Below, in pieces: positions 8,056 to 8,466 of a stretch of 33,220 bases of DNA; within the stretch, counting starts at the first letter, position 1, and each line of letters begins with the position of its first letter. This DNA comes from Microcaldota archaeon (lineage in GTDB: Archaea > Micrarchaeota > Micrarchaeia > Anstonellales > Bilamarchaeaceae). The notes under the pieces are model-generated. The model saw only the letters and a list, made by a program, of their open reading frames with translations. It made no database searches and was not told the origin of the DNA. Both the position numbers and the translations under genes were made by a program. Location: contig JAKQHW010000016.1 of NCBI GenBank assembly GCA_029557835.1, positions 1-33,220 of the forward strand, in the 5' to 3' direction.

Positions 8056-8066
8056 GCTTAAAAAGC
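8056..8066 (-). promoter_or_regulatory. Candidate TATA element (GCTTTTTAAGC) for the rps13 operon; alternative GGTATATTC at 8040-8048
   Basis: AT-rich boxes upstream of rps13 at archaeal spacing for a leadered transcript. Confidence 0.4.
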
Positions 8067-8276
8067 GTGGTGAGTGGGGAGGATGGCGGATAAACGGAAG
8101 GGGGCCGGGTGTTTTTGGGCTCCTTTTTACCCGGGGCTATTGGCTAGGGCCGAACCGGGGCTTTGCCGGAGTGGGGCGGGTAAAAAAAGGAGTAAGTACA
8201 AAGCGTTTCAAGGCGAAGTTGATGGGGAATCAGAAAATCGGGGGAGGGTCAGAAAGATAGAAGAAAATGGGGCAAT

Positions 8277-8345
8277 AGTTTCGCCGAGGCGAAACTGTGC
8301 GCATTTTTCCAGCAGGAAAAATAGCGAGGGGGTTGTTACCCCCTC
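8277..8345. repeat. Three consecutive perfect hairpins downstream of tRNA-Ser: 8277-8296, 8303-8322, 8326-8345
   Basis: AGTTTCGCC-GA-GGCGAAACT; ATTTTTCC-AGCA-GGAAAAAT; GAGGGGGT-TGTT-ACCCCCTC. Confidence 0.75.
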
Positions 8346-8358
8346 CGCGTTTTCTCTC

Positions 8359-8440
8359 GCGGAGGAGGAGATTTGAACTCCTAATCCCGTGAGGGACATG
8401 CTTTCCAGGCATGCGCACTACCAGGTTATGCGACCTCCGC
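8359..8440 (-). tRNA. tRNA-Ser (anticodon GGA), class II variable arm, CCA not encoded
   Basis: Acceptor GCGGAGG/CCTCCGC, anticodon arm CATGC-CTGGAAA-GCATG, variable stem TCCC/GGGA, T arm AGGAG-TTCAAAT-CTCCT, G73. Confidence 0.95.
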
Positions 8441-8444
8441 TCTG

Positions 8445-8466
8445 CTTTTTGCCGTGATGCAAAAAG
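8445..8466. terminator. 8-bp perfect hairpin CTTTTTGC-CGTGAT-GCAAAAAG between cbf5 and tRNA-Ser; terminator or processing element
   Basis: Inverted repeat read directly. Confidence 0.45.

Follow-up and report, generated by a model that had tools for sequence, protein, structure and literature searches.

Three perfect hairpins, packed into positions 8277–8345 behind a tRNA-Ser gene of an archaeal genome, probably belong to one copy of a small, non-autonomous mobile repeat, here called E. The reading to which this probability applies covers mobility, placement, fold and a mirror-coupled core, together with a proposed triplex and template switching.

The hairpin array and its locus

The window is the whole stretch of DNA analysed, 33 220 nt in length. 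It is a single contig of a 0.94-Mb archaeal MAG, the source genome. On the minus strand, the gene order is a TruB/Cbf5-like gene, tRNA-Ser, the hairpins, rps13, a gene for an S4-domain protein (rps4), rps11 and RNA polymerase subunit D. Hairpin 1 (arms 8277–8285/8288–8296) has a stem of 9 bp and a 2-nt loop. Hairpins 2 (8303–8310/8315–8322) and 3 (8326–8333/8338–8345) each have 8 bp and a 4-nt loop. Spacers of 6 nt (hairpins 1–2) and 3 nt (hairpins 2–3) separate them, and all arms are 100% complementary. A preliminary description had reported arms of 9, 8 and 8 bp, loops of 2–4 nt and spacers of 3–6 nt, and had placed the array 3' of tRNA-Ser; its coordinates and the perfect complementarity are borne out in full, and the minus-strand tRNA is tRNA-Ser(GGA). 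The window contains seven perfect hairpins, against 2.7 from a first-order Markov model. The three-hairpin cluster is the single one in the window, and 60 random windows contain none. The predicted folding energy of minus-strand RNA from 8357 to 8277 is -39.1 kcal/mol; shuffled sequences give -20.7 ± 3.1 (z = -6.0). The three hairpins are real and lie far beyond chance. The positions of all features are collected in table 1.

Table 1. Features of the window copy of E and of its neighbourhood.
Feature	Positions	Strand	Basis and remarks
tRNA-Ser(GGA)	8358..8440	(-)	ARAGORN; Rfam RF00005, 56.4 bits; target gene of E
whole element E, 175 nt	8183..8357	(-)	match to covariance model R1; starts at first base after tRNA-Ser discriminator base
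outer stem, 5' strand (AGAGAAAA)	8350..8357	(-)	pairs with 8259–8267; covaries across copies
inner hairpin, purine arm (GAGGGGGT)	8338..8345	(-)	one arm of hairpin 3; fold, three-way covariation
inner hairpin, pyrimidine arm (ACCCCCTC)	8326..8333	(-)	other arm of hairpin 3; fold, three-way covariation
nested 54-nt two-hairpin module M1	8272..8325	(-)	hairpins 1 and 2; at inner-hairpin base; absent from compact copies
outer stem, 3' strand (TTTTCTTCT)	8259..8267	(-)	predicted fold; covariation
third pyrimidine run CCCTCCCCC	8240..8248	(-)	mirror of inner-hairpin 3' arm; proposed third strand of triple helix
genus-specific tail ACTTCGCCTTGAAACGCTTTGTACTTACTCC	8189..8219	(-)	in window copy, 3' end lost and 20 nt inserted before tail
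rps13 promoter, TATA-like, conserved	8056..8066	(-)	comparison of loci L010, L011 and L012; outside E, present with or without E

The very stable predicted fold is the point in favour of a local structured ncRNA gene or a riboregulator of the rps13 operon, and a structured ncRNA was among the candidates first put forward. Such a gene is highly improbable here. The same hairpin string stands at unrelated loci, so that the dispersed copies contradict a local function. The rps13 promoter is conserved in all compared species of the genus, with or without the array. When the Rfam 15 covariance models were applied, the tRNA alone was matched and no family matched E.

Two further structures lie nearby. 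An inverted repeat at 8117–8131/8181–8194 (CTCCTTTTTTTACCC...GGGTAAAAAGGAG on the minus strand), directly downstream of E, folds at -25.5 kcal/mol including its surroundings; it may be another module or a tRNA terminator region. The other, a perfect 8-bp hairpin with a 6-nt loop (8445–8466), lies between the TruB-like gene and tRNA-Ser, a short way upstream of the latter's 5' end.

A dispersed repeat built of modules

The source genome carries a second copy of the array. On another contig (C36), a copy 92% identical to it, with the same three hairpins, stands behind tRNA-Leu(CAG). A search of the genome with the tRNA–hairpin region gives a 142-bp match of 87% there, part of a copy behind tRNA-Leu(UAA), and several matches of lesser length. 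The earlier statement that the hairpins are not copies of one repeat holds for the three among themselves, which do differ, and fails for the array, which is repeated as a whole. Alignment of compact copies defined a regular unit of 95 nt, named E, from which a covariance model was built. Each genome of the genus, five in all, yields 21–44 copies with this model, and the lowest E-values reach 1e-31. When the roughly 60-nt core was modelled by itself, 34 of the 84 genomes in the order gave matches, with 21 and 27 core copies in two that belong to a different family. All of these genomes are MAGs in many contigs. The model matches show many dispersed copies of E throughout the genus and a patchy occurrence of the core across the order. 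The preliminary description had judged that neither tRNA nor rps13 function explains the hairpin density, and this was well founded. Open-licence papers yielded no description of E. Among IMG/VR viral contigs, none carries any of three tested E core patterns, and spread of E by viruses is rejected on that ground.

Read from 8357 along the minus strand, E consists of an outer strand, a purine arm, a loop, a pyrimidine arm, the second outer strand, a short linker, a C-rich run and, last, the tail. In the window this unit is lengthened by module M1, inserted at the foot of the inner hairpin. Alignment with the compact copies identifies hairpin 3 as the inner hairpin of E, and hairpins 1 and 2 as a module nested within it. 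The search for other loci with the same hairpin string, which had been advised at the outset, was productive: a pattern search places the two-hairpin module M1 at 18 sites in the genus, mostly inside E at the inner-hairpin base. It occupies another spot of E at three loci (L174, L184 and L186) and lies outside any recognisable E at least twice (L187 and L189). One insertion after the same gene is common to two species, with an extra loop module in one (L131) and without it in the other (L126). Because these orthologous copies differ in this way, modules come and go.

The two ends of E, AGAG/CGG/GTC... and ...CTCCTTACGC, do not form an inverted repeat. In intact copies the tail measures 37 nt and ends in TTACGC. 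In other clades the core is followed by longer repeated tails peculiar to them (L261, L263, L265, L266, L268 and L269 in genome G030; L222 and L223 in G062). L222 and L223 measure 162–164 nt. Since different tails follow the same core, the right end of E is modular. The data support a constant, structured left end joined to a lineage-specific right end.

Fold and three-strand coupling

To assess the predicted fold, 28 copies were aligned without gaps. In the two-part stem, 92.9% of cells are paired, against 74.5% in shuffles and at most 73.6% in slid registers. Double changes number 91, against 29 in shuffles; the copies are related, so these are not counts of independent events and covariation is inflated by kinship. 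The check for compensatory change that the preliminary description had called for gave a positive answer for both outer stem and inner hairpin. Mutual information, calculated over 31 copies with no structure assumed, ranks the fold-relevant column pairs in the order 23–55, 16–23, 16–55, 1–39, 22–56, 17–22, 4–35 and 17–56. Two of these eight pairs belong to the inner stem and two to the outer stem. The other four link a downstream run (columns 51–58) to both arms of the inner hairpin. This run is the mirror of the 3' arm, and hence parallel-complementary to the purine arm. Three-strand triples are seen at A14–T25–T53, A16–T23–T55 and A17–T22–T56.

The mirror relation works in a single register. 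At a column sum of 78, identity is 0.92; all other registers reach at most 0.65. Among asymmetric tracts, 46 of 59 are exact mirrors and none is a direct repeat, while shuffles give 13 of 59. Other clades repeat the pattern, with exact mirrors in 51 of 61 against 10.8 expected from shuffles. With the position of the third run set by an independent anchor, 54 of 72 are exact mirrors and two fit antiparallel pairing. The stem-foot base and the first base of the third run are both C in 45 copies, both T in 21 and some other combination in six. Within the genus, 22 distinct combinations of outer stem and inner arm obey the mirror rule, so that its source is not one inherited haplotype. The alignments show that the core comprises an outer stem and an inner hairpin, marked by strong compensatory change, and that a downstream pyrimidine run mirrors the 3' arm and changes in step with it. 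Origin of the third tract as a direct repeat is rejected (0/59), as is its antiparallel re-pairing (2/72). The mirror relation is not a product of simple duplication or inversion.

The tracts are short and C-rich, and the shuffles match fairly often. Both points would fit a mirror relation that is a by-product of composition or of alternative antiparallel pairing. This is quite unlikely: mirrors abound and direct repeats are missing, antiparallel pairing is rare, one register stands out from all others, and the excess of mirrors is replicated in other clades.

Triple helices follow known rules, which call for just such a mirror relation. T.A-T and C+.G-C triples form with the third strand parallel to the purine arm; G.G-C and A.A-T triples form with it antiparallel. 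The three-way coupling in E suggests an intramolecular triple helix, in which the E strand would supply the pyrimidine motif and the complementary strand the purine motif. Protonation of C is required for a C-rich pyrimidine triplex, and this counts against the favoured reading.

Placement at tRNA ends and stop codons

At least 19 of the 44 tRNA genes in the source genome have a copy of E within 4 nt of a mature end, and E always turns its outer-stem end towards the tRNA. In the genus set, 16 copies lie in sense behind the 3' end of a tRNA and 14 in antisense ahead of a 5' end. Copies may also begin exactly at a stop codon (distance 0), as six do in other clades and one does in the genus. The loci at which E starts at the stop codon of an open frame are L222, L223, L224, L239, L261, L277 and L133. 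Per base, far more copies lie at distance zero than at 6–60 nt. As mapped, the constant end of E abuts the mature tRNA end (3' sense or 5' antisense) and, less often, a stop codon. Exact stop-codon adjacency in independent clades does not follow from a hairpin-base target rule, and it weighs against the favoured reading.

Such exact placement at mature tRNA ends and stop codons, together with strong structural constraint, would also suit a functional element kept by selection at gene ends: a tRNA trailer or leader, or a 3'-end element acting as processing signal, terminator or insulator. A stacked terminator or insulator for rps13, one of the first candidates, is rejected: at orthologous loci E is missing or of another type, and many copies are antisense at tRNA 5' ends. 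Selection for such a function is unlikely on several counts. About half of the tRNA-end copies (14 of 30 for the genus) lie in antisense ahead of the tRNA, at its 5' end, where they are unable to terminate it. More than half of the tRNA genes have no E. At the orthologous tRNA-Ser(GGA), three element types and one site without an element are found: two species (G001 and G004) have other types, and a third (G003) has none yet retains the same rps13 promoter. Copies of E also interrupt duplicated gene fragments. Closest to the present result is the remaining first candidate, an integration scar, in so far as the array is seen as a mobile-repeat copy inserted at a tRNA 3' end.

Two further tRNA loci were noted. 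In G003 the tRNA-Ser(GGA) upstream of rps13, which is without E, is inverted relative to other species (L012, contig C124). At L058 (1221–1520; G000:C21 11614–11913), tRNA-Thr(TGT) stands between two oppositely oriented copies of E, and a partial tRNA fragment borders each of them on the side away from the gene.

Direct duplications and mobility

As judged from their flanks, gene-internal copies of E are bordered by long, variable direct duplications of about 20–115 bp, which often leave an intact gene on one side. These duplications are the ground for regarding E as mobile. The longest surrounds a core copy inside a tRNA gene (L084, G026:C43) and is identical at 115 of 115 positions. Its duplicated bases interrupt the tRNA copy, and an intact tRNA remains on the other side; this is apparently a recent insertion. 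Further cases are identical at 50/50 (L043), 29/29 (L109), 25/25 (L074), 24/25 (L079) and 72/78 (L008) positions. In nearly every clear case, the left duplication copy ends 0–2 nt from the start of E. A strict end-match test scores 10 of 41 copies away from tRNA ends, against 0.4% of mismatched pairs. Applied to tRNA-end copies, the same test scores one of 36. This near-absence counts against the favoured reading, which has to assume either two modes of insertion, or loss of the second copy, a redundant tRNA fragment. A pair of core copies 285 bp apart with a 144-bp identical right flank (L257 501–863, G059:C17) is probably a tandem duplication.

A distinctly possible alternative, and a serious rival, is that a trans-acting enzyme moves E. 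E would then be an ordinary MITE-like transposon mobilized by a transposase or tyrosine recombinase, with the structure as recognition site. Its multiple copies, long direct duplications and precise left end are all in keeping with this. Integrases of the tyrosine recombinase family commonly use tRNA genes, and tyrosine recombinases are present in three of the five genomes of the genus. They are missing from the other two, however. The Y1 transposase (PF01797) is found in none of the five genomes, against five of 14 controls, and a reverse transcriptase in one; among these three types, no candidate is common to all five. E has no terminal inverted repeats, its duplications are long and variable rather than short and fixed in size, and the three tested core variants are on no IMG/VR viral contig. 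In the retrieved flanks of the copies, no larger autonomous coding element that shares the left end of E was seen.

The sole reverse transcriptase domain found in the genus lies at L191 (G003:C117 7466–7900). Two particular routes are rejected: Y1/REP-type transposition, since Y1 is absent from all five genomes, and retrotransposition, since a reverse transcriptase occurs in one of five only.

A model of movement

Template switching, the route in the favoured reading, would proceed as follows. (i) The triple-helix hairpin would be the part conserved for mobility. (ii) The E structure and other folded sequences, such as tRNA genes, might stall the replication fork. (iii) At the stalled fork, the new strand might switch template, so that E is copied to a new site. 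Template switching at stalled forks is proposed as the cause of long, variable duplications that come without inverted ends or a dedicated transposase. Insertion at tRNA ends would be close to neutral because tRNA processing removes extra RNA. A bolder claim is put forward tentatively: that E represents a new class of transposase-free, triplex-forming DNA units. By switching template during replication, such units would place copies of themselves at folded sequences or at boundaries (tRNA ends, stop codons), and the target would be duplicated over tens to more than 100 bp.

Predictions of natural intramolecular triplexes usually come from the sequence of a single genome, and evolutionary evidence for selection on the three-stranded state is scarce. 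The many copies of E in several clades co-change on three strands, so that the mirror rule is directly testable by base swap and restoration. To our knowledge, almost no small mobile elements have been described from this lineage of tiny-genome archaea, in which E has a sharp preference for tRNA ends. There is also a warning for annotation. A stack of perfect hairpins behind a tRNA gene may be nested debris left by mobile elements and not a terminator.

Comparison with known systems

MITEs of archaea and bacteria (reviewed in PMC10969869) resemble E in being short, non-coding, multi-copy, presumably non-autonomous and flanked by direct repeats. E differs from them in the same two respects that count against a MITE-like origin, its ends and the size of its duplications. 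REP/BIME sequences and Rickettsia palindromic elements are likewise short, dispersed palindromic units in small prokaryotic genomes. E is set apart from REP/BIME by a different architecture and by the absence of a Y1 (RAYT-type) transposase from the genus.

Mitochondrial hairpin elements and GC clusters, of sponges (PMC2800124), yeast (PMC4478555) and Allomyces, are closer. They too are tiny, GC-rich, hairpin-forming and mobile, with nested and merged units and no known transposase. E shares with the RHE/DHE type its short, GC-rich hairpin units, which are multi-copy and polymorphic between relatives, and M1 is a double hairpin like the double-hairpin elements in those accounts. The mitochondrial elements differ from E in being organellar and in having short (2–3 nt) or no target duplications, and the passages on them describe no third-strand mirror rule.

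Intrastrand triplex motifs of bacteria, known as TM or TMECO and earlier as PIT elements, were described by Holder et al. (2015; PMC4666352). They were searched for with loops of 1–6 nt; TMECO is 37 nt long and intergenic, and no mobility was seen. Like E, the TM motifs are short, G/C-rich and dispersed, with three tracts on one strand that make up a hairpin and a mirror-related third strand. They have many copies per genome and no transposase found nearby. In E the three tracts are a purine arm, a complementary arm and the mirror-related run, all on one strand; the linker before the run, of about 20–23 nt, exceeds the loop range of the TM motifs. That linker, some 20 nt long, carries the outer stem. 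E is further distinguished by its tail, its nested modules, its position at tRNA ends and the long duplications that accompany insertion. It thereby connects triplex-type structures with mobility, a property not demonstrated for the bacterial triplex repeats. In kind, these bacterial intrastrand triplex motifs come nearest to E among published systems, together with the mitochondrial hairpin elements and GC clusters.
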